Positions 13,208 through 61,760 of a stretch of DNA of 64,000 nt are shown piece by piece (position 1 is the stretch's first letter; each line of letters starts with the position of its first letter). Under the pieces are notes generated by a model, which saw only the letters and a program-made list of their open reading frames with translations, had not been told where the DNA came from and searched no databases. Both the position numbers and the translations under genes were made by a program. This stretch comes from Pseudomonadota bacterium (GTDB lineage Bacteria > Pseudomonadota > Alphaproteobacteria > Acetobacterales > Acetobacteraceae), in the NCBI GenBank assembly GCA_021815825.1, contig JAKAZO010000009.1, positions 1 through 64,000 on the forward strand, written 5' to 3'.

Positions 13208-13567
13208 TGGATCTGTCTCCTCCCTGAGCCGCGGCGCGGCCCTTGCGCGCCATGCTAATGGCCGGCGCCAGCGCGCGACAAGAGGGCCCGGGACTGGACA
13301 GACGCCCCGCGACGCGTCAGATCTGTGCACTGCAGTATGCACTCGGGCGGGCGTAACGCTCTGTTATTCGGAAACGCCCAGACTGTTATTCGGAAGCGCC
13401 CAGACGGGTATCCCAGACGGGTATCCCAGACGGGTATCCCAGACGGGTATTCCGAAACGCCCGGACTGGGTGCATCCAGCTCGGGGGGCAGGAAGGGGCA
13501 CGGGAGACCCATGCGAGGCGACAGGGGCTGTGGCGCGTGGTCCGACACTGCGTCGGGCCGCTGATCG
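13208..13567. other. Intergenic region of 360 bp with nested tandem repeats
   Basis: Divergent promoter region between the serine hydrolase (minus) and the glycosyltransferase (plus). It holds two copies of a roughly 21-bp unit (GTTATTCGGAAACGCCCAGA type) followed by four copies of a 13-bp unit, and nothing else I can identify. The long frames crossing it are repeat-derived and not protein-like. Confidence 0.7.
13362..13453 (+). repeat. Compound minisatellite: 21-22 bp x2 then 13 bp x4
   Basis: The unit GTTATTCGGAAACGCCCAGA occurs at about 13362 and 13384 with one change. It runs directly into AGACGGGTATCCC repeated at 13402, 13415, 13428 and, with the last bases changed, 13441. The last copy leads into another TTCCGAAACGCCC, an inverted and a direct echo of the first unit. 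Each 13-mer has a GGG/CCC arm pair. Confidence 0.9.
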
Positions 13568-14662
13568 GTGGGGTCGGAGCCTTTGCTGCTGACCGTCTTC
13601 CCGACCTTCGCCATCGGCGGGGCGCAGGTGCGCTACGCCGCCTTCGCAAACCGGTTCGGCCCGGCCTATCGGCATGCCATCATCGCCATGGACGGCACGC
13701 TCGCCTGCCGCGAACGGCTTGCGCCGGGGCTGGATGTGCAGTTTCCCGCCTTCGCCGCGCGCAAAGGTGCGACGTTGGCGACCGTGCGAGCGGCGCGGCG
13801 TGTGCTGCGGGCCATTCGCCCGCAGGTTCTGGTGACCAACAACTGGGGCGCGATCGAGTGGGCCATGGCGAATGCCCTGCCGCTCGCCCGCCACATCCAT
13901 ATCGAGGACGGATTCGGGCCGGAAGAGCGCGCCGCGCAGATTCCGCGCCGGATCTGGACGCGGCGACTCTTCTTGCGGCGGAGCACCGTCGTACTGCCCT
14001 CGCGCACATTGTGGCGGATCGCGACCGAGATCTGGAAGCTGGATCCCGCCCGGCTGCGCTATATTCCGAACGGCATCGACCTCGCCCGCTTCACCGCCGA
14101 GGCGCCGCGGGGGCACGGTGCCGAGCCGGTGATCGGCACCGTCGCGGCGCTGCGGGCGGAGAAGAACATCGGTCGGCTCCTGCGCGCCTTCCGCATCGTC
14201 ACCGCCACGACCGCGGCGCGGCTGGTGATCGTTGGCGACGGCCCCGAGCGAGCCAGCCTGGCCGCCCTCAGCGAACGCCTCGGCCTCAGCGAGCATGTGA
14301 CCTTCCTCGGGCATCACGCCGATACGGCGCCACTCTATCGTGATTTTGATATATTCGCCCTGTCGTCCGATACCGAGCAGATGCCGCTCTCGGTCCTCGA
14401 GGCGATGGCGTCCGGGCTTGCGGTCGCGGCCACTGACGTGGGGGACGTGCGCGAGATGTTGGCGCCCGGCAATCAACCCTTCATCGCCCCATGCGATGAT
14501 GCGGCCCTCGCGGACCGGGTTCTGGCCCTGATCGGCACCCCCGAGCGGAGCGCGATCGGCGCCGAGAACCGGGCCAAAGCCGAGCGCGACTACGACCAGG
14601 AGCGGATGTTTCGCGCCTACGCGGCGCTGATGGACGGGGCAGCTGATGGACGGGGCAGATGA
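13568..14662 (+). CDS. Glycosyltransferase family 4
   Basis: A 364-residue GT-B fold glycosyltransferase. The N-terminal acceptor domain starts LLLTVFPTFAIGGAQVRYAA (GGA loop). The donor domain has PNGIDLARF, GTVAALRAEKNIGRLLRAF, IVGDGPER, and the retaining GT4 EX7E signature E-QMPLSVL-E. It likely transfers a sugar from a nucleotide donor during polysaccharide or glycan assembly at the inner membrane face. A GTG at 13568 is used; no strong ribosome binding site is visible. It overlaps the next gene by ATGA and its last codons derive from a 16-bp duplication. Confidence 0.85.
   Translation: MGSEPLLLTVFPTFAIGGAQVRYAAFANRFGPAYRHAIIAMDGTLACRERLAPGLDVQFPAFAARKGATLATVRAARRVLRAIRPQVLVTNNWGAIEWAMANALPLARHIHIEDGFGPEERAAQIPRRIWTRRLFLRRSTVVLPSRTLWRIATEIWKLDPARLRYIPNGIDLARFTAEAPRGHGAEPVIGTVAALRAEKNIGRLLRAFRIVTATTAARLVIVGDGPERASLAALSERLGLSEHVTFLGHHADTAPLYRDFDIFALSSDTEQMPLSVLEAMASGLAVAATDVGDVREMLAPGNQPFIAPCDDAALADRVLALIGTPERSAIGAENRAKAERDYDQERMFRAYAALMDGAADGRGR
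14626..14657 (+). repeat. 16-bp tandem duplication at the glycosyltransferase 3' end
   Basis: GCTGATGGACGGGGCA occurs twice without gap (14626-14641, 14642-14657). Because 16 is not a multiple of three, the second copy is read in a different frame and changes the last residues and stop of the glycosyltransferase just before the epimerase start. Confidence 0.9.
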
Positions 14663-16745: not shown

Positions 16746-17810
16746 TCAAGGCGCGGTGATGCGTCCGCCGGCCAGCGGCGCCGGAGCGCCGGTGGTGGCC
16801 GGGAAGCTCAGCGGCAAGCGGCGGGCCACGCGGGCGGCGAGGAACGCGAAGCACTGCGCCTCCAGCGCGTCGCCATCCCAGCCCACCGCCTCCACCGGCT
16901 CGACCGGGGCCGGCAGCGAAGCGGCCAGCGCTGCCATGATCGCCGGATTGCGCCGCCCGCCGCCGGTGACGAGCCAGCGCCGTGGCGCTGCCGGCAGCCG
17001 CGTCGCGGCCACCGCCGCGGCGATGAAGGCAGTGAGCGTCGCGGCGCCGTCCGCGGGCGCGAGCGCGGCCAGCCCGCTCGCCGACAGGAGGGCGGAAAAA
17101 TCCAGCCGGTCGAGCGATTTCGGCGCCGGGCGGGCGAAATACGGGTGGGCCAGCAGCCGCCCCATCACCGCCGGGTCCGCCCGTCCGCACCGGGCCAGCG
17201 CGCCGTCACGGTCGAACGCGGTGCCGGTGTGGCGCATCGACCAGTCATCGAGCGGGCCGTTGCCCGGGCCGGTGTCGCAGGCGGTGAAATCGCCGTCTGC
17301 GCCGATCCACGTCACGTTCGCCACCCCGCCGATATTGAGCACCGCCAGCGGCCGCGGCAGACCGGCGGCGAGCGCGGCGTGGAAGACCGGGGCGAGTGGC
17401 GCGCCCTCGCCGCCGGCGGCGACGTCCGCGGTGCGGAAATCATGCGCTACCGCCATGCCGGTCGCCCGCGCCAGCGCCGCCGCGTCGCCGATCTGCCAGG
17501 TCCGCCGCGCGGCCGGGGCGTGCAGGATGGTCTGGCCGTGAAAGCCCAGCAGGTCCGCATCCCCGCCCAGCGCCGCCACGGCCTCGGCGTGCCGCGCCGT
17601 CAGCCGCGCCTCGACCTCGGCGAGGAAGCCGTCGCCCGCCGCCAGCCCGGGTGCGAGGGTGAGCAGGTGGCGCAGATCGGAACGCAGCGCCGCGTCGTAT
17701 GCGAGCGTCAGACGCGGCCCGAAGCCCGTCACGCGCTCCCCGTCGGTCTCGATCAGCGCCGCGTCCACCCCGTCCAGCGAGGTGCCGCTCATCAGCCCGA
17801 TCACCCGCAT
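16746..17810 (-). CDS. anmK: Anhydro-N-acetylmuramic acid kinase
   Basis: A 354-residue enzyme that cleaves the 1,6-anhydro ring of anhydro-MurNAc while phosphorylating it to MurNAc-6-P during peptidoglycan recycling. Family marks are GLMSGTSLDGVDAALIE at the N-terminus (ATP loop), FHGQTILH, LNIGGVANVTW and CDTGPGNGPLDDW with the catalytic aspartate. A 152-bp gap with a TTAACC sequence separates it from the downstream ROK kinase. It is divergent from tyrS, the usual neighbour in alphaproteobacteria. Confidence 0.94.
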   Translation of the reverse strand: MRVIGLMSGTSLDGVDAALIETDGERVTGFGPRLTLAYDAALRSDLRHLLTLAPGLAAGDGFLAEVEARLTARHAEAVAALGGDADLLGFHGQTILHAPAARRTWQIGDAAALARATGMAVAHDFRTADVAAGGEGAPLAPVFHAALAAGLPRPLAVLNIGGVANVTWIGADGDFTACDTGPGNGPLDDWSMRHTGTAFDRDGALARCGRADPAVMGRLLAHPYFARPAPKSLDRLDFSALLSASGLAALAPADGAATLTAFIAAAVAATRLPAAPRRWLVTGGGRRNPAIMAALAASLPAPVEPVEAVGWDGDALEAQCFAFLAARVARRLPLSFPATTGAPAPLAGGRITAP

Positions 17811-41934: not shown

Positions 41935-42812
41935 GCCTTGGGTTCTCCTGTCGGCGCCAGGGGGTCTTCTGTCGACGCCAGTGTTTCAGATGGCGCCCGC
42001 GCTTGGAAGGGGTGGCCGGGAAGGGGCGGGCGGCGGGCGGCGCGGAACGCGCGCATGAGCCGGCCGGGCTCGTCGGTGGTGAAGGCCTCGGCGAAGGCAT
42101 CGATGCCGGCGGCGATGGCGGCCCGCAGCGGCAGGTCCTCCCATTGGCGCATCAGCGCCTTCTGCTGTGCCAGCGCCCGGGGAGCGGCGGCGAGCAGGGT
42201 CTCGACCCAGGCGGCGACCCCGGCGTCCAGCGCCTCGGGCGGCACGACGCGCTGCACCAGCCCCCACGATGCCGCCTCGGCGGCGGTGAAATGCTCGCCC
42301 AGCAGCAGCATCTGCCGCGTTCGCCCCCAGCCGACGAGCATCGGCAGCAGCGCTGCCTCGACCACCGAGGGGATGCCGACCTTCACCTCCGGCATGCCGA
42401 ACACGGCGTCCTCGGCGGCGATGCGCAGGTCGCAGGCCGCGGCGATCTCCAGTCCGGCGCCGAGCGTGTAGCCGGCGAGGCGGGCGATGACCGGGACGGG
42501 AAGGTTGCGCACCGCCTCGCAGACACGATGGATGCCGGCGATGAAGCCGCGCGCGCCGAGCGGATCCAGCGCCGCCATCTCGTCGAGATCGGCGCCGCCG
42601 ATGAAGGCGCGCTCACCGGCGCCGCGCAGCACCACCGCGCGCAGCCCCGCCCGCCCGGCAAGCCGCTCCAGCGCCTCGGCCAGCGCGGCGAGATCCGCCC
42701 GGCCGACGATATTGAGCCCATGCCGGCCGCTGACCGTGACGGTGGCGATCGCCGCCGCGGCGCTGGCTGCACCGGGGCCGGCCTGGGGCATGGATGGCGC
42801 GTCCGACGTCAT
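41931..42812 (-). CDS. Enoyl-CoA hydratase/isomerase family protein
   Basis: A 293-residue crotonase: oxyanion segments GAGERAFIGGADLDEM and RLAGYTLGAGLEIAAACD, and EVKVGIPSVVEAALLPMLVG. One of the two classic catalytic glutamates is present (LGAGLEIAA and PEVKVGIPS region). ATG 42812 follows GGCGGAG at 8 bp; the upstream open frame contains the 14-bp repeat and is not protein-like. A proline-rich C-terminal tail of about 25 residues exceeds the family norm. Confidence 0.85.
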   Translation of the reverse strand: MTSDAPSMPQAGPGAASAAAAIATVTVSGRHGLNIVGRADLAALAEALERLAGRAGLRAVVLRGAGERAFIGGADLDEMAALDPLGARGFIAGIHRVCEAVRNLPVPVIARLAGYTLGAGLEIAAACDLRIAAEDAVFGMPEVKVGIPSVVEAALLPMLVGWGRTRQMLLLGEHFTAAEAASWGLVQRVVPPEALDAGVAAWVETLLAAAPRALAQQKALMRQWEDLPLRAAIAAGIDAFAEAFTTDEPGRLMRAFRAARRPPLPGHPFQARAPSETLASTEDPLAPTGEPKA

Positions 42813-42924
42813 GGGGCTGGCTCCGCCGCTGCTGGCCTGGAGCATGGCCCGACGCTGGTCGCCTCCATCAGATCCGGACGCTGCTCCCAATGCCGGAGTC
42901 TCGCCCGTCCCCTGGGGTGGACGC

Positions 42925-42970
42925 AACCCCGGTGGGGCAACCCCGGTGGGGCAACCCCGGTGGGGCAACC
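42925..42970. repeat. 14-bp tandem repeat, three copies plus part
   Basis: AACCCCGGTGGGGC at 42925, 42939 and 42953, then AACC. Each unit contains CCCC/GGGG arms, so the array can fold into several alternative hairpins. It lies between the hydratase (minus) and gyrA (plus) starts, inside the likely promoter region. Confidence 0.92.
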
Positions 42971-49077: not shown

Positions 49078-49556
49078 CCACGGCCGTGGCGGATCCGTTC
49101 TATCGGCCGGAGGAGACGACGGCGGCCGAGGCCATCGCCGCCATCGGCGAGGAGCTCGCCGTGTTCGACGACTGGATGGAGCGATACCAGTACATCATCG
49201 AACTCGGCCGCAAGCTGCCCGCTTTTCCTGCCGACTGGATGGACGAGGCGCATCGCGTCATCGGCTGCCAGAGCAAGGTGTGGCTGGCGTCGGAATGGCG
49301 CGCCGGTGCGCTGTGGCTGGCCGGCGCCTCGGACGCCGCCATCGTCTCGGGGTTGGTGGCCCTGATGCTGCGCGTCTATTCCGGCCGCCCGCCGGAGGAG
49401 ATCGCCGCCACCGACCCCAAGTTCCTGCGTGATCTCGGCCTGATCGCGGCGCTCTCCACCAATCGCGGCAATGGCGTCGCGGCCATGGCGCGGACGATCC
49501 GCGAGCGTGCGGCGATGCACGTGCGATTGGCGCAGGCGGCCACGCCGCAGCCGTGA
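49074..49556 (+). CDS. sufE: SufE-family cysteine desulfuration protein
   Basis: A 160-residue SufE, which accepts persulfide sulfur from a cysteine desulfurase for Fe-S cluster assembly. The sulfur-accepting cysteine is in [14 protein letters not shown], and [19 protein letters not shown] is the family N-terminus. Start is TTG 49074 (overlapping hslU) or GTG 49086. No suf genes are adjacent, as is common. Its last codons lie in a 54-bp tandem duplication. Confidence 0.88.
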
Positions 49557-49642
49557 ATCGCACGGTGAGAAGCGTCGCGATCGGCGCAGGCGGCCACGCC
49601 GGAGCCGTGAATCGCACGGTGAGAAGCGTCGCGATCGGCGCC
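49523..49642. repeat. 54-bp tandem duplication over the sufE stop codon
   Basis: Copies at 49523-49576 and 49577-49630 differ at two positions, and a third partial copy follows. 54 bp is a multiple of three. The first copy contains the sufE stop; the second lies outside, just before the 3' end of the converging GGDEF-EAL gene. Confidence 0.92.
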
Positions 49643-49652
49643 TGACGGACCT

Positions 49653-52406
49653 TTAGCCCGGGGTCCGCTGATTCGCGGTGATGGCGTCGAGCAGGGCAGC
49701 GCGGAACGCCTCGCCGGCCGCGTTCCAGGGCGTGCCATCCTGGCTCCAGCGGCGCAGCGCGGCAAAGAACCGGGCATGGGCCTGGCCGGCAGGCGTCGCG
49801 CAGAGGCCCGCGGCGGCCAGGAACTGCCCGGTCGGGCTGGCCTGCTCGTCGTGCAGGTCGAGCGAGACCATCGTGTGGCTCGGCAGCAAGGTGAGCACGT
49901 GCTGCAGGTCGAGATGGGCGGCAAAGACGCCGAGCAGCGAGCGCGGCTGGCGCACCACGGGCGGTGGCGTGAAGCCGGCAAGCCAGGTCAGCAGCGCATC
50001 GGCGGGCATCGGCCGCGCGACCGCATAGCCCTGCACCTGTTCGACGCCGAGCACGGCGAGTGCGTCCAGAATATCGTCCGTTTCGGCGCCCTCGACGACG
50101 AGCCCGGTGCCCAGACCGCGGGCGAGCGCCTGCAGCGTCATCACGAACAGGAGGTCGTCCGGGCGGCGATGCACCTCGCGCACGAAGGCCTGGTCGAGCT
50201 TGATCGTATCCACCGGCAGCGCCTTCAGCCGTAGCAGCGACGAGTAGGCGCTGCCCACATCGTCGAGGGCGATGCGCACGCCGACGGCGCGGATATCGTC
50301 GATCCGCTCGAGGGCATGATCGAGCGACAGAAATTCGCCGCTCTCCAGCACTTCGAGCGTGATCCGGCCCGGCTCGACGCTGCTCGCGCCCAGCACGTCA
50401 TCGAGGCAAGTGCGGCAGTCGGCGTTCAGCACGGCTTCGGGGTCGACATTGACCGAGAGACCGAGACGGTGGCCCGCCCGGTCCCAGAGGGCGAGGTCCT
50501 CGAGACCGCGCTCGAGAACCTGCTGCGTCAGCTTGCGGCGTTCCGGCGCCGAGAGATGGGGCAGGAACTCGCCCGGCGAGACCAGCCGGCTGCCCTTGGC
50601 GAGGCGTGCGAGCGCTTCGACGCCGACGACGACACCGCGTTGCAGGTCGATGATCGGCTGATAGTGCACGCGCACCTGGCCGCGCGCGAGCAGGCCGCGC
50701 AGCAGCACGGTCTCGACGCCTTTCTCCTGCGACGGGCGGTAGAGCTCCCAGAATCGTTCGCGGTTGCGCTTGTTCTCTTTCGCGGCATAGAGCGCCGCGT
50801 CGGCGTGGCGCAGCAGGAGATCGGATTCGACATTGTCGAGCGGGAACATCGTCACGCCAAGGCTGCCGCCGACATTGACGCTGGTGCCGTTCGGCAGGGC
50901 GACGGGCGCGGTGATGGCCGCATGGATGCGCTCGGCGGCCGACTCGAGGTCGGCCATCTGCGCCAGACCCTCGAGCACGATGGCGAACTCGTCACCGCCG
51001 AGCCGGGCGACGAAGTCGGTGCCGCGGAGCGCATGGCGCAGGCGGGCCGCGATCTCGCGCAGCAGATGGTCGCCGGCGGCGTGACCGAAGCGGTCGTTGA
51101 CCGGCTTGAAATCGTCCAGATCGAGCATGCCCACGGCAAGCAGCCGCTCCTGCCGGCGCGCGCGCGACATCGCCTGCGGCAGATGCTCGGACAGGGCTAG
51201 TCGGTTCGGCAGTTCGGTGAGCGTGTCATGGCGCGCGGTCCAGCTCAGCGCGGTGCGCTCCTGGTTGAGCGTCTCCTTCAGATCCCGCTCATCGAGGGCG
51301 CGGCCGATCATTTCGCCGACCCGGGCGAGCAGATGGAGCATCTCCTGGTCGAAAACATCGGTCTGGGCCGATACCGCGGCCAGAACCCCCCAGCGTTCGC
51401 CGCCGCGGCGGATCGGCACCGTCGCGGCGGCGCGCCACTGATGGCGTTCCATGTCGGCGGACAATTCGCTCACCGCCGGATCCGCGAGCCTGTCATTGTC
51501 GAACTGCGTGCGTCCGCTCGCCCAGGCGCGGCCCAGCAGCGAGCGTGGCTCGTCGGCATCGAGCTGCGAATAGAACCGGCGGATCAGCGAGACGCCCCGG
51601 CCGGCGCCCGTGTAATAGCTGCACCGGCCCTCCGCGTCGGGGCGGCCGATCCAGGTGGCCACGAACAGGCCGCCGGTCACCAGGCGGCGGCAGGTGCCGC
51701 GCAGCACCTCGACCTCGGTTTGCGCCTTGAGCAGCAGCTGCGCCTCGCCGAACAGGGCCGCATAGAGGCGCTGGATATGTTCGATCCGCGCCAGCCGCCG
51801 GCGCTCGGCGTCCGCGGTCTCGACCCGCTCCAGCGCCATGCCGAGCATGGTGGAGATATGCTCGAGGAAGCTGTGGATCGGCTCCCGCGAGAAGAAATTG
51901 GGCACCACGCTGCGCAGATCCACGATCCGGTGCATGCCCGCGCGCCCGCGCAAGGGCACCGCGACACTGCTGCGCCAGGGATGGCGCAAAGCGACGTTAC
52001 GCCAGGGCTCGGCGATTGGATCGCTGGACCAGTCATCGATGCCGGTGATGGTGCCGGTGCGCCAGGCCCGGCCGGCGGGGCCCTGAGCGAGCGGGCCGGA
52101 ATCGATGCGCACCACGACCGCGTTCGCGTAGTCCTCGGCACCGGAACCGTTCGCCGCCTCGTGGCGAAGCCGCCCGGTTCCATCCGGACGCCAGAGCCAG
52201 ACCGCGCTGACACCCGGGATCGTGCCGAGAATCTGCACCGCGGCACGTCCCAGCGCCGTCAGCGAATGGACGTCGAGCAGGGTCTTGTCGAGTTCGAGCA
52301 GGATGCGGGTGATGTCCGCGGCGGTGGGAATTGCCGCCGCCATGCCCGCGCGGCTCACCTCGGCCGCGGCGGCGCCCTGACCCGTGAGAAGCGCAGGCTG
52401 CCCCAT
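49653..52406 (-). CDS. GAF-GAF-GGDEF-EAL cyclic-di-GMP signalling protein
   Basis: A 917-residue cytoplasmic sensor. Two GAF-like domains (about 20-165 and 200-360) precede a diguanylate cyclase domain with intact GGDEF at about residue 470 (ARLGGDEFAIVLE) and an EAL phosphodiesterase domain from about 575 (VHYQPIIDL, VEALAR, LEVLESGEF, ALDDVGSAYSSL, IKLDQAFV, VVEGAE). Catalytic residues of both look intact, so it may be bifunctional or gated by its GAF ligands. About 105 further residues follow the EAL domain. Start ATG 52406 follows AAGGGGG; a further upstream in-frame start exists. Divergent from trpG. Confidence 0.9.
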   Translation of the reverse strand: MGQPALLTGQGAAAAEVSRAGMAAAIPTAADITRILLELDKTLLDVHSLTALGRAAVQILGTIPGVSAVWLWRPDGTGRLRHEAANGSGAEDYANAVVVRIDSGPLAQGPAGRAWRTGTITGIDDWSSDPIAEPWRNVALRHPWRSSVAVPLRGRAGMHRIVDLRSVVPNFFSREPIHSFLEHISTMLGMALERVETADAERRRLARIEHIQRLYAALFGEAQLLLKAQTEVEVLRGTCRRLVTGGLFVATWIGRPDAEGRCSYYTGAGRGVSLIRRFYSQLDADEPRSLLGRAWASGRTQFDNDRLADPAVSELSADMERHQWRAAATVPIRRGGERWGVLAAVSAQTDVFDQEMLHLLARVGEMIGRALDERDLKETLNQERTALSWTARHDTLTELPNRLALSEHLPQAMSRARRQERLLAVGMLDLDDFKPVNDRFGHAAGDHLLREIAARLRHALRGTDFVARLGGDEFAIVLEGLAQMADLESAAERIHAAITAPVALPNGTSVNVGGSLGVTMFPLDNVESDLLLRHADAALYAAKENKRNRERFWELYRPSQEKGVETVLLRGLLARGQVRVHYQPIIDLQRGVVVGVEALARLAKGSRLVSPGEFLPHLSAPERRKLTQQVLERGLEDLALWDRAGHRLGLSVNVDPEAVLNADCRTCLDDVLGASSVEPGRITLEVLESGEFLSLDHALERIDDIRAVGVRIALDDVGSAYSSLLRLKALPVDTIKLDQAFVREVHRRPDDLLFVMTLQALARGLGTGLVVEGAETDDILDALAVLGVEQVQGYAVARPMPADALLTWLAGFTPPPVVRQPRSLLGVFAAHLDLQHVLTLLPSHTMVSLDLHDEQASPTGQFLAAAGLCATPAGQAHARFFAALRRWSQDGTPWNAAGEAFRAALLDAITANQRTPG

Positions 52407-52868
52407 CGTGCCCCCTTGATCCGGACGGCCAATCCAAGGTCCACCGGTCATCAAATTCCGTCCGCGGCCGGTCGGGCCGTGTCTCCCTCGGCCCTATCCT
52501 GGCGCGCGAGACATGAAGGCGCGATTAAGGCCCTCGGAGTGGGGATCATTCCCGTCCTCGCAGCGACGTTGCGCTCAGCGCGGCGGCGCCGGCAACGACG
52601 GCGCTGTGACATATTGCAACAGCGCGGCGCAAGCCATTCGGAAGGCGTTGGCGAACGTGGCAGCCGGCGTGGCCGCAACGTGGCAGCCGGGCGTGGCCGC
52701 CCGGGCGGCACGGGGCTGCCGCGTGGGGCGCCGCGTGGGGCGGCCGTGGGGGGGGCGGCGCGGTGGCGTTGACCGCACCCGCTCCCTTCCGCAGAGTGCG
52801 CCGCGCGCGCCGCTGCCGGCACGGCAGCGATGGAGCCAGAGGCCGGTGCGTGGCGGCGGAGAACGGCG
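52407..52868. other. Intergenic region of 462 bp before trpG
   Basis: Divergent control region between the GGDEF-EAL gene and trpG. It holds a 23/24-bp direct repeat (52654-52700, AACGTGGCAGCCGG type), a 14-bp perfect palindrome GCCGCCCGGGCGGC (52696-52709) and GC-rich low-complexity sequence. An open frame 52513-52872 with ATGA overlap to trpG exists but is Arg/Gly-rich and not convincing. I see no Trp-codon leader with antiterminator pairing. Confidence 0.6.
52654..52709. repeat. Direct repeat and palindrome upstream of trpG
   Basis: Two direct copies of a 23/24-bp unit differing by one G (52654-52676, 52677-52700), ending in the self-complementary GCCGCCCGGGCGGC (52696-52709). Confidence 0.75.
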
Positions 52869-53465
52869 ATGATCCTGCTGATCGACAACTACGACAGCTT
52901 CACGTTCAACCTCGTGCATTTCCTCGGCGAGCTGGGGGCGCAGTGTGACGTGCGCCGCAACGACACGCTCGACGTCGCCGCCGCGATGGCGCTGGCGCCG
53001 GAGGCGATCGTGCTCTCGCCTGGCCCATGCACGCCGAGCGAGGCCGGTATCTGCCTCGACCTGATCGAGGCCGCGGCCGGGCGCGTGCCGGTGCTCGGCG
53101 TCTGCCTCGGCCATCAGGCGATCGGCCAGGCCTTCGGCGGCGAGGTCGTGCGCGCGCCGGTGCCGGTGCATGGCAAGACCAGCCCGATCTTCCACCATGG
53201 CAGCGACATCTTCGCCGGCCTGCCCAGCCCGTTCCGCGCCACCCGCTACCACAGCCTGATCGTCGCCCGCGAAAGCGTGCCGGACGCGCTGGTGCCGACC
53301 GCCTTCACCGAGGACGGGCTCGTGATGGGGCTGAGGCATCGCCACTGGCCGATCTTTGGCGTCCAGTTCCACCCCGAAAGCATCGCCAGCGAACACGGCC
53401 ACGCGCTGCTCGGCAATTTCCTGGCCCTGGCGCGCGGCTCCAACACGCCAGCGCGTGCGGCCTGA
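52869..53465 (+). CDS. trpG: Anthranilate synthase component II (glutamine amidotransferase)
   Basis: A 198-residue class I glutamine amidotransferase giving ammonia to TrpE to make anthranilate. Triad: C79 in [13 protein letters not shown]168 and E170 in [23 protein letters not shown] forms the oxyanion/glutamine loop. trpE is not in the window. PabA function (folate) is also possible for such proteins. trpD begins 8 bp after its stop. Confidence 0.95.
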
Positions 53466-53472
53466 ACCCACC

Positions 53473-53577
53473 GTGGCGACCCCCACCGTGGCGACCCCGC
53501 CAGTGCCGACCCCGCCAGTGCCGACCCCGCCAGTGCCGACCCCGACAGTGCCGACCCCGACAGTGCCGACCTCTGGC
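53473..53577 (+). repeat. 15-bp in-frame tandem repeat at the trpD 5' end
   Basis: Seven units of GTGCCGACCCCGCCA type (variants GTGGCGACCCCGCCA, GTGCCGACCCCGACA). Period is five codons and every unit opens with GTG. Located 8 bp after the trpG stop. Confidence 0.95.
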
Positions 53578-54612
53578 CGTGCCGGCGACCTGCGGCCGGT
53601 TCTGGCCCGCCTCGCCACCGGCGCCAGCCTGACCGAGGCGGAGGCGGAGCAGGCTTTCGGCGTGATCATGTCGGGCGAGGCGACACCGGCGCAGATCGCC
53701 GGGCTGCTGATGGCGATGCGCGTGCGCGGCGAGACGGCGGGTGAGCTGACCGGCGCGGTGCGGGCGATGCGGGCGCGGATGCTGCCTGTCGTGCTGCCGC
53801 CGGCGCTGGCGGCGCAGGCGATGGATGTGTGCGGCACGGGTGGTGACAATGCCGGCACGCTCAATGTCTCCACGGCGGTGGTGTTCGTGCTGGCCGGGCT
53901 TGGTGTGCCGGTGGCCAAGCACGGCAACCGGGCGCTGTCCTCGCGCACGGGAGGGGCGGACGTGCTGGGCGCGCTCGGCGTCGATGTCGATGTGCCGACC
54001 GACCGGCTGGCGGGAATTCTGGCGCAGGCCGGGTGCGTCTTTCTTTTCGCCCCGCGCCACCACGCCGCCTTGCGCCATGCCGCCGGCCCGCGCGTCGAAC
54101 TCGGCACCCGCACGATCTTCAATCTGCTCGGGCCGCTGGCCAACCCCGCCTCGGTGCCGCGCCAGCTCATCGGCGTGTTCGATCCTGCCTGGGCGGAGCC
54201 GATGGCCCTCGCGTTGCGCGAACTCGGAACCGAGCGCTGCTGGGTGGTGCACGGCCAGGGGCTCGACGAGCTGGCCCTGGCCGGCGAGAACCAGGTCGTG
54301 GAGCTGGCAGGGGGGCGGCTCAGTCGGTTCACCGTCCGTGCCGAAGCGGCGGGGCTGGCGCCGGCGCCGGTCAGCGCCATCCGCGGCGGTGACGCCGCCG
54401 AGAACGCCGCCGCACTGGAGGCGTTGCTGCGCGGCGCTGCCGGGGCGTACCGCGACACGGTGCTGCTCAACGCGGCCGCCGCCCTCATCATCGCCGGGCG
54501 CGCCGCCGACCTGGCCGAGGGCGCCGGCCTGGCGGCGGCGGCGATCGATGCCGGCGCTGCCCTGGCCGCGCTGGACCGCTTGCGCGCCGCCGCACCCCTG
54601 GCATCCTGCTGA
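53473..54612 (+). CDS. trpD: Anthranilate phosphoribosyltransferase with N-terminal pentapeptide repeat
   Basis: Transfers phosphoribose from PRPP to anthranilate. The family-like core starts at about [12 protein letters not shown] and carries [15 protein letters not shown] (PRPP/Mg), [17 protein letters not shown], and [13 protein letters not shown]. Upstream, the frame contains seven 15-bp repeats encoding V-P-T-P-P/T, each beginning with a GTG (53473, 53488, 53503, 53518, 53533, 53548, 53563). Any could start translation, giving 0-30 extra N-terminal residues; no clear ribosome binding site decides. The first GTG is listed; 53563 would give the most normal protein (349 residues). Confidence 0.9.
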
Positions 54613-54635
54613 GCGATGTTCGACGAGGATACTTG

Positions 54636-55460
54636 ATGAACGCGTCCCCCCCCGCCGTGCCCATGCCCGACATGCTGGCGCGGATCTGCGCCGATACCCG
54701 CACCGAGACCGCCCGGCGCAAGCAGGCGACGCCACTGGCCGCGCTGAAGTCCGAGATCGCCGCCGCCACGCCGCCGCGCGGTTTCGGCCGGGCGATCAAG
54801 GCGGCGGCGGCGCGTGGCGGGGTGGCGCTGATCACCGAGATCAAGAAGGCCTCACCCTCGGGTGGCCTGATCCGGCCGGATTTCGACCCGCCGGCGCTCG
54901 CCCGCGCCTATCGGGACGGCGGCGCGGTGTGCCTCTCCGTGCTCACCGACACGCCCTATTTCCAGGGCGAGCCGGCGCATCTGCGCGCCGCCCGCGACGC
55001 CGTCGATCTGCCGGTGCTGCGCAAGGATTTCATCCTGGATCCCTGGCAGGTCCATGAGAGCCGAGCGATGGGCGCGGATTGCATCCTGCTCATCCTCGCC
55101 GCGCTGACCGACGCCGAGGCGCTGGAACTCGGCGAACTGGCGCGCTCGCTGGACATGGATGTGCTCGCCGAGGTGCACGATCAGGCCGAGCTCGACCGCG
55201 CGCTCGGGCTGCCGACGGACCTCATCGGCATCAACAACCGCAATCTGCGCACCCTGACGACCGATCTCGGCGTCTCGCAGGCGCTGGCGCCGCAAATTCC
55301 ACCCGAGCGGGTGCCGATCGCGGAGAGCGGCATCCGCTCGTACGCCGACATCGCGGCGCTGCGCGCGCGCGGCGTGCTCGGCTTCCTCGTCGGCGAGCAC
55401 CTGATGCGCCAGGCGGACGTCGCCGCGGCGACGCGGGCGCTACGCGGCGAGGCGGCATGA
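54636..55460 (+). CDS. trpC: Indole-3-glycerol phosphate synthase
   Basis: A 274-residue TIM-barrel enzyme converting CdRP to indole-3-glycerol phosphate. Family text: [22 protein letters not shown] (catalytic lysine), [35 protein letters not shown] and [11 protein letters not shown] 54636 follows a GAGGA; TTG 54633 is an in-frame alternative. It overlaps moaC by 4 bp. Confidence 0.96.
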
Positions 55461-57150: not shown

Positions 57151-57200
57151 GCGCGGAGCGCGTTCATACTGACCAGCGCGGAGCACGTTCATACTGACCC
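57151..57200 (+). repeat. 25-bp direct tandem repeat between moeA and lexA
   Basis: Two copies (57151-57175, 57176-57200) of GCGCGGAGCGCGTTCATACT followed by GACCA/GACCC, differing at one or two bases, then a further GCGCG-TA-GCGCG segment. Lies 6 bp after the moeA stop. Confidence 0.88.
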
Positions 57201-60413: not shown

Positions 60414-61760
60414 ATGCGGCTGATGACGCGGCTGACGGTAGTCTTCTCGGCGCTGGCAGCGTTGGCGCTCGTCCCCGCACAGGCGGAGGAGGGCGGCGCG
60501 GCCTCGCCCACCAGCGCCGTTCCGGCGGCGCAGTCCAGCAACGCCGTCCCGGCGGTTCAGTCCAGCAACGCCCGTCCGGCGATGCAGACGAGCCACGCCA
60601 GCGCGATGATGGCGGGCGACGCGGCGCTGGCCGATCCGGTGTTGGTCGATGCGGTCAGCGCAATGGTTGGCATCTTCGCCCACGAGTTCGGCCATTTCAT
60701 GGTCGGCGAGCTGAACCTGCCGGTCACCGGTCCGGACGAGGATGTCGCCGACGAGTTCGCGGCGATGAGCTTCATCGACACCATCCGTCCGGATCCCATG
60801 CATCTGACACCGATGGCGCTCGCCGCCGCGCGCCTCTGGCTCTACCTCGCCGAGGACGAGGAGGCACGGCACGATCCCTCGCCCTGGTACGACGAGCACT
60901 CGCCCGACCTGCGCCGCTTCGGCCTGTTCGTCTGCGATCTCTACGGCGCGTATCCGCAGAGCTTTGCCGGGGTCATGGAGGTCGGCAACATCCCGCCGCG
61001 GCGCCGCGAACGCTGTGTCACCGACGAGCGCCACCGGCATGCCGCCTGGGCGGCGCTGCTGCGCCCGCACCGCCGCCGCAACGCCGATCCCGATTTCCCC
61101 GGCGACCTGCCCGCGAATACACCGGGCGGGCGCGTCAGCGTCGAGTGGCGTCCGGCCGCCGACCCGCTCGCCGCCCGGCTTTCGGCGATGCTCCAGCGCG
61201 GCGGCGGCTTCGAGGCGATTGCCGCCACCATCTCCAACCTCGAAGTGCTGCCGCGCGACACCAAGATCATCTTCCGGGACTGCGGTGTCATCAATGCCTT
61301 TTACGATACCAAGGACGGCTCGGTGACCATGTGCCACGAGCTGATGGGGCAAATTTATAAGGTCTTCCGCCGCCACGCCCCCGCCATGGTCGCCACGGTC
61401 TCGGCCCGCGCGGACGATTCCGGTTTGGACGATCCCAACAAGGGCGGCGAGACGCTGGCGCGCTTCCTGCGCGGCTTCTGGCGCGTGCAGACCGCGGCCG
61501 GGACGATGACCGCCGAGCTGGCCATGGATGGGTCCTACCGAATGACCGGCGGCGCCGGCGGCACATCGAGCGCGGTCAGCGGCCGCTGGTCCGCGGTACC
61601 GATGGGCAAGGGCGAAGTGCAGCTCAGTTTGGTCCCGATGCAGGCCAGCGGCGAGGGGCTGGCGCATGGCGTGGCGATGATGCCGCAGACGGCGATGCTG
61701 CATGTGCAGGACACCGACACCATGATGTCGCCGCTCGGCATGGTGAGCCGGATGCACTGA
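60414..61760 (+). CDS. Secreted DUF4344-like putative metallopeptidase
   Basis: A 448-residue exported protein: signal peptide (LTVVFSALAALALVPAQA), a linker with three copies of a QSSNAVPAV-type nonapeptide (about residues 35-60), and a metallopeptidase-like domain with H90-E-F-G-H94 (GIFAHEFGHFMVGE) and D113-E114 (VADEFAAMSF). A second pattern YDTKDGSVTMCHELM (about residue 300) echoes the family. A 150-residue C-terminal domain follows. ATG 60414 has GGAGG at 5 bp; ATG 60402 is also possible. Substrate unknown. A terminator hairpin follows. Confidence 0.72.
   Translation: MRLMTRLTVVFSALAALALVPAQAEEGGAASPTSAVPAAQSSNAVPAVQSSNARPAMQTSHASAMMAGDAALADPVLVDAVSAMVGIFAHEFGHFMVGELNLPVTGPDEDVADEFAAMSFIDTIRPDPMHLTPMALAAARLWLYLAEDEEARHDPSPWYDEHSPDLRRFGLFVCDLYGAYPQSFAGVMEVGNIPPRRRERCVTDERHRHAAWAALLRPHRRRNADPDFPGDLPANTPGGRVSVEWRPAADPLAARLSAMLQRGGGFEAIAATISNLEVLPRDTKIIFRDCGVINAFYDTKDGSVTMCHELMGQIYKVFRRHAPAMVATVSARADDSGLDDPNKGGETLARFLRGFWRVQTAAGTMTAELAMDGSYRMTGGAGGTSSAVSGRWSAVPMGKGEVQLSLVPMQASGEGLAHGVAMMPQTAMLHVQDTDTMMSPLGMVSRMH

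Follow-up and report, generated by a model that had tools for sequence, protein, structure and literature searches.

At the 5΄ end of trpD in this genome, seven in-frame GTG codons follow one another at regular spacing, which raises the questions of where translation of the gene begins and whether the repeated start codons regulate it or merely accompany the copying of a repeat. We analyzed the locus in a contiguous stretch of 64 kb (hereafter, the window) on contig 90 of a 3.2-Mb draft genome of 150 contigs. The coordinates and the open frame given in a preliminary description were confirmed: seven tandem 15-bp units occupy positions 53473-53577 of the plus strand, share the reading frame of the trpD core and contain no stop codon; their GTG codons lie at 53473, 53488, 53503, 53518, 53533, 53548 and 53563. 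Tandem Repeats Finder, applied to the window, returned an array at 53473-53571 with a period of 15, 6.6 copies and a score of 149. Because the top array score across 30 first-order Markov versions of the window was 74, we concluded that the trpD array is not due to chance. Two details had to be corrected. The gap between the TGA of trpG and the first GTG is 7 nt (53466-53472) rather than 8 bp, and the peptide V-P-T-P-P/T that had been ascribed to the units is encoded exactly by four of the seven, the others differing from it (for example, VATPT and VPTSG). With seven units of 3n length (15 bp) inside an open frame, the array has the form of a minisatellite, and its units are presumably translated. 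Another in-frame GTG, the eighth, is found further 5΄, within trpG.

The genes trpG, trpD and trpC lie in succession on the plus strand (Table 1). The trpG start at 52869 was taken from a home-made codon gene model; an in-frame ATG at 52830 is a possible alternative, the profile match being given as 52830-53465, and the stop codon TGA occupies 53463-53465. Read from the first GTG, the trpD frame extends over 53473-54612 and encodes 379 amino acids, and the TIGR01245 match, covering profile positions 2-327 of 330, places the product in TrpD.

Table 1. Features of the trpG-trpD-trpC region and the other tandem arrays of the window scoring at least 60, with their state in the two congeners (G001 and G002)
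Feature	Coordinates	Strand	Remarks
trpG, glutamine amidotransferase of anthranilate synthase	52869-53465	+	TIGR00566, 237.9 bits (cutoff 121.05)
Spacer between trpG stop and first GTG	53466-53472	+	7 nt; equal length in both congeners
Unit 1 (VATPT)	53473-53487	+	GTG most likely the trpD start, by comparison with the congeners
Units 2-6	53488-53562	+	75 bp in excess of both congeners; probably from tandem duplication
Unit 7 (VPTSG)	53563-53577	+	Position of the congeners' second unit, which starts with GTT or GTA
trpD remainder, anthranilate phosphoribosyltransferase core	53578-54612	+	TIGR01245, 365.3 bits (cutoff 199.05)
trpC, ATG at 54636	54636-55460	+	NF001370, 398.3 bits (cutoff 348); match given as 54633-55460
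Array, 22-bp x2 then perfect 13-bp x4	13361-13450		7-8 nt instead of 90 in both congeners
Array	14626-14662		21 nt instead of 37 in both congeners, one unit
Array	16973-17045		73 nt in all three species
Array	41940-41981		One unit fewer in G001 (21 nt for 42); almost the same length in G002 (40 for 44)
Array	42923-42970		Shorter in both congeners (53 nt for 129, 72 for 134); about two units remain in G002
Array, 54-bp x2.2, 96% matches	49523-49641		Other insertion in its place in G001; contig break in G002
Arrays (two)	52654-52700, 52712-52768		24 nt instead of 115 jointly in both congeners
Array	57151-57199		Gone in both congeners (0 nt for 50, 8 for 59 between matched anchors)
Array, 27-bp x3.4, inside a called gene	60508-60599		Short of one unit in G001 (80 nt for 107) and of two in G002 (53 for 107)

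We compared the locus with those of two congeneric species, G001 and G002, each represented by one genome. Over trpG and the trpD core, the window species shares 90.5-93.8% identity with them; G001 and G002 are 94.4% identical to each other and both further from the window species. Between matched anchors, we found 105 nt in the window species compared with 30 nt (two units) in G001 and in G002, and the difference from either congener is 75 bp, that is, 5 x 15. It had been suggested that copy number could change without breaking the frame, and this is what is seen between species (seven units versus two and two). Because G001 and G002 each carry two units, the sequence comparison points to two as the ancestral number in the genus. 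Alternatively, units may have been lost in the ancestor of G001 and G002, which is conceivable because these species are closer to each other than to the window species. The two-unit tails may themselves be an old duplication, their units 1 and 2 differing at 6 and 7 of 15 sites within the two congeners. In the window species, units 3 and 4 are identical, as are units 5 and 6, and a single base separates unit 2 from unit 3 and unit 4 from unit 5; divergence is greatest in units 1 and 7, at the two ends, unit 7 differing from the others at 5-6 sites. This graded similarity is the pattern expected under stepwise tandem duplication.

We regard it as probable that the array is a coding minisatellite, in which a tolerated in-frame expansion lengthened the tail, the first GTG serves as the start and the additional GTGs are a by-product. 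The ancestor of the genus would have had a two-unit tail rich in Pro, Ser, Thr and Ala ahead of the TrpD core, and the window species would have gained five further 15-bp units between the two ancestral ones via tandem duplication (replication slippage or unequal recombination). Translation of trpD would be initiated at GTG 53473, perhaps aided by ribosomes that have just completed trpG. Since the unit length of 15 is divisible by three and the tail is not part of the enzyme fold, such growth would be tolerated, and seven GTGs would have resulted because the copied 3n unit held a GTG valine codon. The expansion is presumably neutral.

The structure predicted for the protein is consistent with this tolerance. 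In an AlphaFold2 model of TrpD built on an alignment of 26 sequences, the block means of pLDDT over residues 1-40 were 43, 46, 39 and 56, and values were mostly about 90 or more afterwards (at least 90 at 245 of the 379 residues), the first helix comprising residues 41-48; a core stretch at residues 154-158 also fell below 50. The sequences of solved TrpD proteins aligned from residue 39 onward at the earliest (25 sequences, E up to 1e-20). Between G001 and G002, 8 of the 30 sites of the tail differ, compared with 5.6% of sites across a 4-kb region (P about 2e-4), which indicates that the tail is little constrained. Given the low pLDDT, the onset of solved-TrpD matches at residue 39 or later and the divergence of the tail between G001 and G002, the Pro/Thr-rich N-terminal tail is likely to be disordered and weakly constrained. 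In the same alignment, a 4-residue insertion (residues 110-113 of the window species, columns 111-114) was present in all three congeneric species and absent from the other 23 sequences.

The comparison with the congeners also bears on the choice of start codon. The two units begin with GTG and then GTT in G001, and with GTG and then GTA in G002; from the first GTG to the TrpD core, neither species has an in-frame ATG, GTG or TTG, rarer start codons being outside this count. A further in-frame ATG is present in G002, 26 codons upstream of the first GTG and within trpG. Because the first GTG follows the trpG stop after 7 nt in all three species and the second unit of the congeners opens with GTT or GTA, the ancestral start was most likely the first GTG. 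Judged from these sequences, the first GTG is likely to be the trpD start of the congeners, and GTG 53473 is most likely that of the window species.

We computed the energies of pairing with the 3΄ tail of the 16S rRNA, using what we take to be its sequence. The values were -1.7 kcal/mol for GTG 1, -1.9 for GTGs 2 and 3 and +0.4 for GTGs 4-7, and -5.8 kcal/mol was obtained at the first GTG of both congeners. For other starts of the window, we obtained -6.6 (trpG, 52869), -5.9 (trpC), -2.7 (the alternative trpG start, 52830), -8.0 (55940, moeA-like by eye) and -3.2 kcal/mol (47758, hslU-like by eye). GTG 1 thus has no clear Shine-Dalgarno sequence, and a good ribosome-binding site is absent for every GTG of the array, which makes it plausible that ribosomes coming from trpG assist initiation. 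The trpG stop is separated from GTGs 1-7 by 7, 22, 37, 52, 67, 82 and 97 nt, respectively.

Translational coupling by termination-reinitiation was first shown for trpE-trpD of E. coli, according to PMC12548453, which also describes coupling as best at small distances. The present junction resembles that pair in joining neighboring trp genes across a short stop-to-start distance, but the E. coli genes overlap, whereas trpG and trpD are 7 nt apart, and coupling here is putative. PMC10666635 states that coupling requires overlaps or very short distances, with overlaps coupling best, and that it is almost abolished at about 20 nt; in E. coli, it is reduced by 80-90% or fully lost at 38 nt, and +2 nt already costs 5, 20 and 70% in three pairs. 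Given these losses at +2 nt, coupling at +7 nt is uncertain and maybe partial, and the trpD start is perhaps coupled to trpG. Because these data suggest that coupling drops steeply with distance and GTGs 2-7 lie 22-97 nt from the stop, GTG 1 is a likelier start than any of them.

To place the tail within the family, we surveyed the trpG-trpD junction or the region 5΄ of trpD in 47 of 57 genomes from other genera (of the ten left out, two had no match, two were split or at a contig end and six were low-ranking). An array comparable to that of trpD was found in none of these 47 genomes, so that a family-wide array was rejected; two junctions (L225 and L236) contained weak two-copy repeats with scores of 42-58. 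The in-frame start closest to the TrpD core, which need not be the one used, was at most 8 codons away in 43 of the 47 genomes and 13-17 codons before the core in the remaining 4. The 13-residue tail of the congeners is therefore unusual in the family, although not alone, and the 38-residue tail of the window species exceeds every closest-start distance among the 47 genomes.

The first GTG is not favored by all of the evidence. Our home-made codon-usage model chose GTG 7 (53563), all but one of units 2-7 scoring -0.7 or lower, and GTG 1, with its weak Shine-Dalgarno pairing, was predicted to be base-paired in isolated RNA, GTG 7 being less paired in local folds. These observations would be accommodated if the array were an untranslated or barely translated spacer and initiation had shifted to the last GTG, leaving 8 residues ahead of the core, a distance within the range of the closest starts in 43 of the 47 genomes from other genera. 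The preliminary description had likewise considered use of the last GTG. However, both congeners have GTT or GTA in place of this codon, and a start at this position would therefore be new rather than inherited, which makes its use less likely. The last GTG does not pair with the 16S tail (+0.4 kcal/mol), and at 97 nt past the trpG stop it is too far for coupling by the figures of PMC10666635. Moreover, the frame is preserved by the added units, although a spacer would be free to lose it: in the genome sample described below, 10 of the 19 arrays between genes have periods not divisible by three. We consider a start moved to the last GTG unlikely, and retain the first GTG as the more probable start.

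We next considered how common such arrays are. Arrays scoring at least 60 numbered 11 in the 64 kb of the window (172 per Mb); other parts of the genome, 294 kb in total, contained 41 (139 per Mb), as against 25 in 1.92 Mb of Markov windows. The corresponding counts were 43 in 400 kb for G002 and, in genomes G057, G035 and G013, 13 in 120 kb, 8 in 140 kb and 1 in 140 kb, respectively. A 589-kb sample (18% of the genome; non-random, as it consists of contigs with matches to the unit pattern, including the window's own) contained 71 arrays, of which 19 were intergenic, 11 at gene starts, 10 at gene ends and 31 in genes according to home-made gene calls. Periods divisible by three were found for 27 of the 31 arrays in genes versus 9 of the 19 between genes. 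The trpD array ranks among the higher-scoring ones. Of the other 10 window arrays scoring at least 60, 9 had another length, were absent or had been replaced in one congener or both (Table 1), and we conclude that array turnover is general and that the trpD array needs no special cause.

Several further observations were made on these arrays. Judged by length, the array at 60508-60599 represents a second in-frame copy-number change in the window. Within the sampled parts of the genome, the top-scoring array (66-bp x5.8, score 716) is at positions 1-386 of L138, contig 86. The array at 49523-49641 lies at the 3΄ end of a short plus-strand gene that faces a long minus-strand frame, GGDEF-EAL-like by eye. 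In G001, its site is occupied by a palindromic element of about 126 bp, and the G002 contigs end near there. The core of this element, CCTATGAGTCTAGAGCAAC, is dispersed over 38 places in G001, 26 in G002 and 3 in the window genome (at most 2 mismatches), compared with 0 places for the reversed pattern; copies of the element are located at about 1921-2112 of L210 in G001 and at 11048-11300 of L156 in G002. The element may represent a small mobile or REP-like family whose expansion took place in G001 and G002.

How readily a copied unit would carry a start codon can be estimated from codon usage. GTG, ATG and TTG together make up 4.6% of the codons of called genes in the 589-kb sample, and the probability that five random codons include an in-frame ATG, GTG or TTG is 0.21 (0.12 for GTG alone). 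In 4 of 40 in-gene 3n arrays of this sample, all full units had a start codon at the corresponding position; two of these arrays had one full unit, two had two and none had more. The trpD array was not scored in this count, since its gene model began at the last GTG. These results suggest that start codons as a by-product are possible rather than frequent, and that seven are rare, even if their cause should be ordinary.

The preliminary description had proposed a tuning device, in which several of the GTGs would be used and a change in copy number would alter initiation or N-terminal length, with a selected effect on tryptophan flux. More specifically, because start-bearing 3n units would add or remove in-frame starts at growing distance from the upstream stop, gain or loss of units could act as a rheostat on both the length of the N-terminus and the fraction of ribosomes recruited once trpG is finished, and hence on the TrpG:TrpD ratio. 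Unit number did change in frame, the identical adjoining units (3 and 4, 5 and 6) suggest recent duplication, and each unit contains a GTG. However, several starts are not a conserved feature, as the tail of each congener has a single canonical start, the first GTG; for GTGs 2-7, pairing with the 16S tail is at best weak, and they stand 22-97 nt from the trpG stop; array length varies at most of the window sites compared and across the genome; and no comparable array was seen in the 47 family genomes from other genera. We accordingly judge tuning of tryptophan flux to be very improbable, and give the rheostat equally little credence. If it were true, a housekeeping operon would possess a graded, triplet-length analog of phase variation.

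An incorrect unit number through mis-assembly is also highly unlikely, since the units differ in graded order and 105 bp fits within ordinary read length, even though the genome is a draft of 150 contigs and repeats are a usual cause of assembly errors. We also rejected an RNA element at the trpG-trpD junction (no Rfam match with E up to 1 in 52500-54700; fold z-score -1.72, with 11 of 200 shuffles folding at least as well) and a promoter or terminator (none by consensus in 52400-53700, the promoter consensus being of the sigma-70 type only). Nor do the units belong to a dispersed repeat family: the unit pattern (at most 1 mismatch) had 37 matches in the genome versus 11 for the reversed control, and only the six at 53473-53562 adjoin. 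In the congeners, there were 31 and 33 matches versus 18 and 21 for the controls, none adjoining.

Among known systems, the array is closest in form to the in-frame coding minisatellites (VNTRs) of bacteria, with which it shares head-to-tail 3n units whose change in copy number alters protein length and not the frame; it differs in its position at the extreme N-terminus, in the potential start codon of each unit and in that variation is seen between species only. PMC4235727 reports that simple sequence repeats with triplet units leave expression unaffected and can insert amino acids. It also describes lic2A of Haemophilus influenzae, in which, as in trpD, a repeat at the 5΄ end of the gene is accompanied by several possible initiation codons. 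In lic2A, by that account, the starts precede a non-triplet tract and are in different frames, whereas the trpD GTGs lie inside the tract and in a single frame, and the 15-bp unit is divisible by three; the array is therefore not of the lic2A type of translational phase variation. In monkeypox virus OPG208 and OPG204, as described in PMC11026394, a low-complexity tract by the start is associated with an alternative in-frame start and a possible repeat-encoded N-terminal extension; these are viral genes with one upstream ATG rather than a start per unit, and no relationship is implied. Among the titles and abstract openings of open-licence PMC articles, we found neither a bacterial case of repeats multiplying start codons nor a matching bacterial case of trpD with tandem repeats.

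The finding is thus mostly ordinary, the copying of short repeats being common in this genome. The trpD array nevertheless provides a small, clear case of a gene start lengthened through tandem duplication, and illustrates how unit copying can incidentally generate repeated start codons. Gene-start prediction at such arrays calls for caution, as the codon model led to the last GTG and the comparison with relatives to the first. Likewise, repeated in-frame start codons should not be taken as regulation before relatives have been checked.
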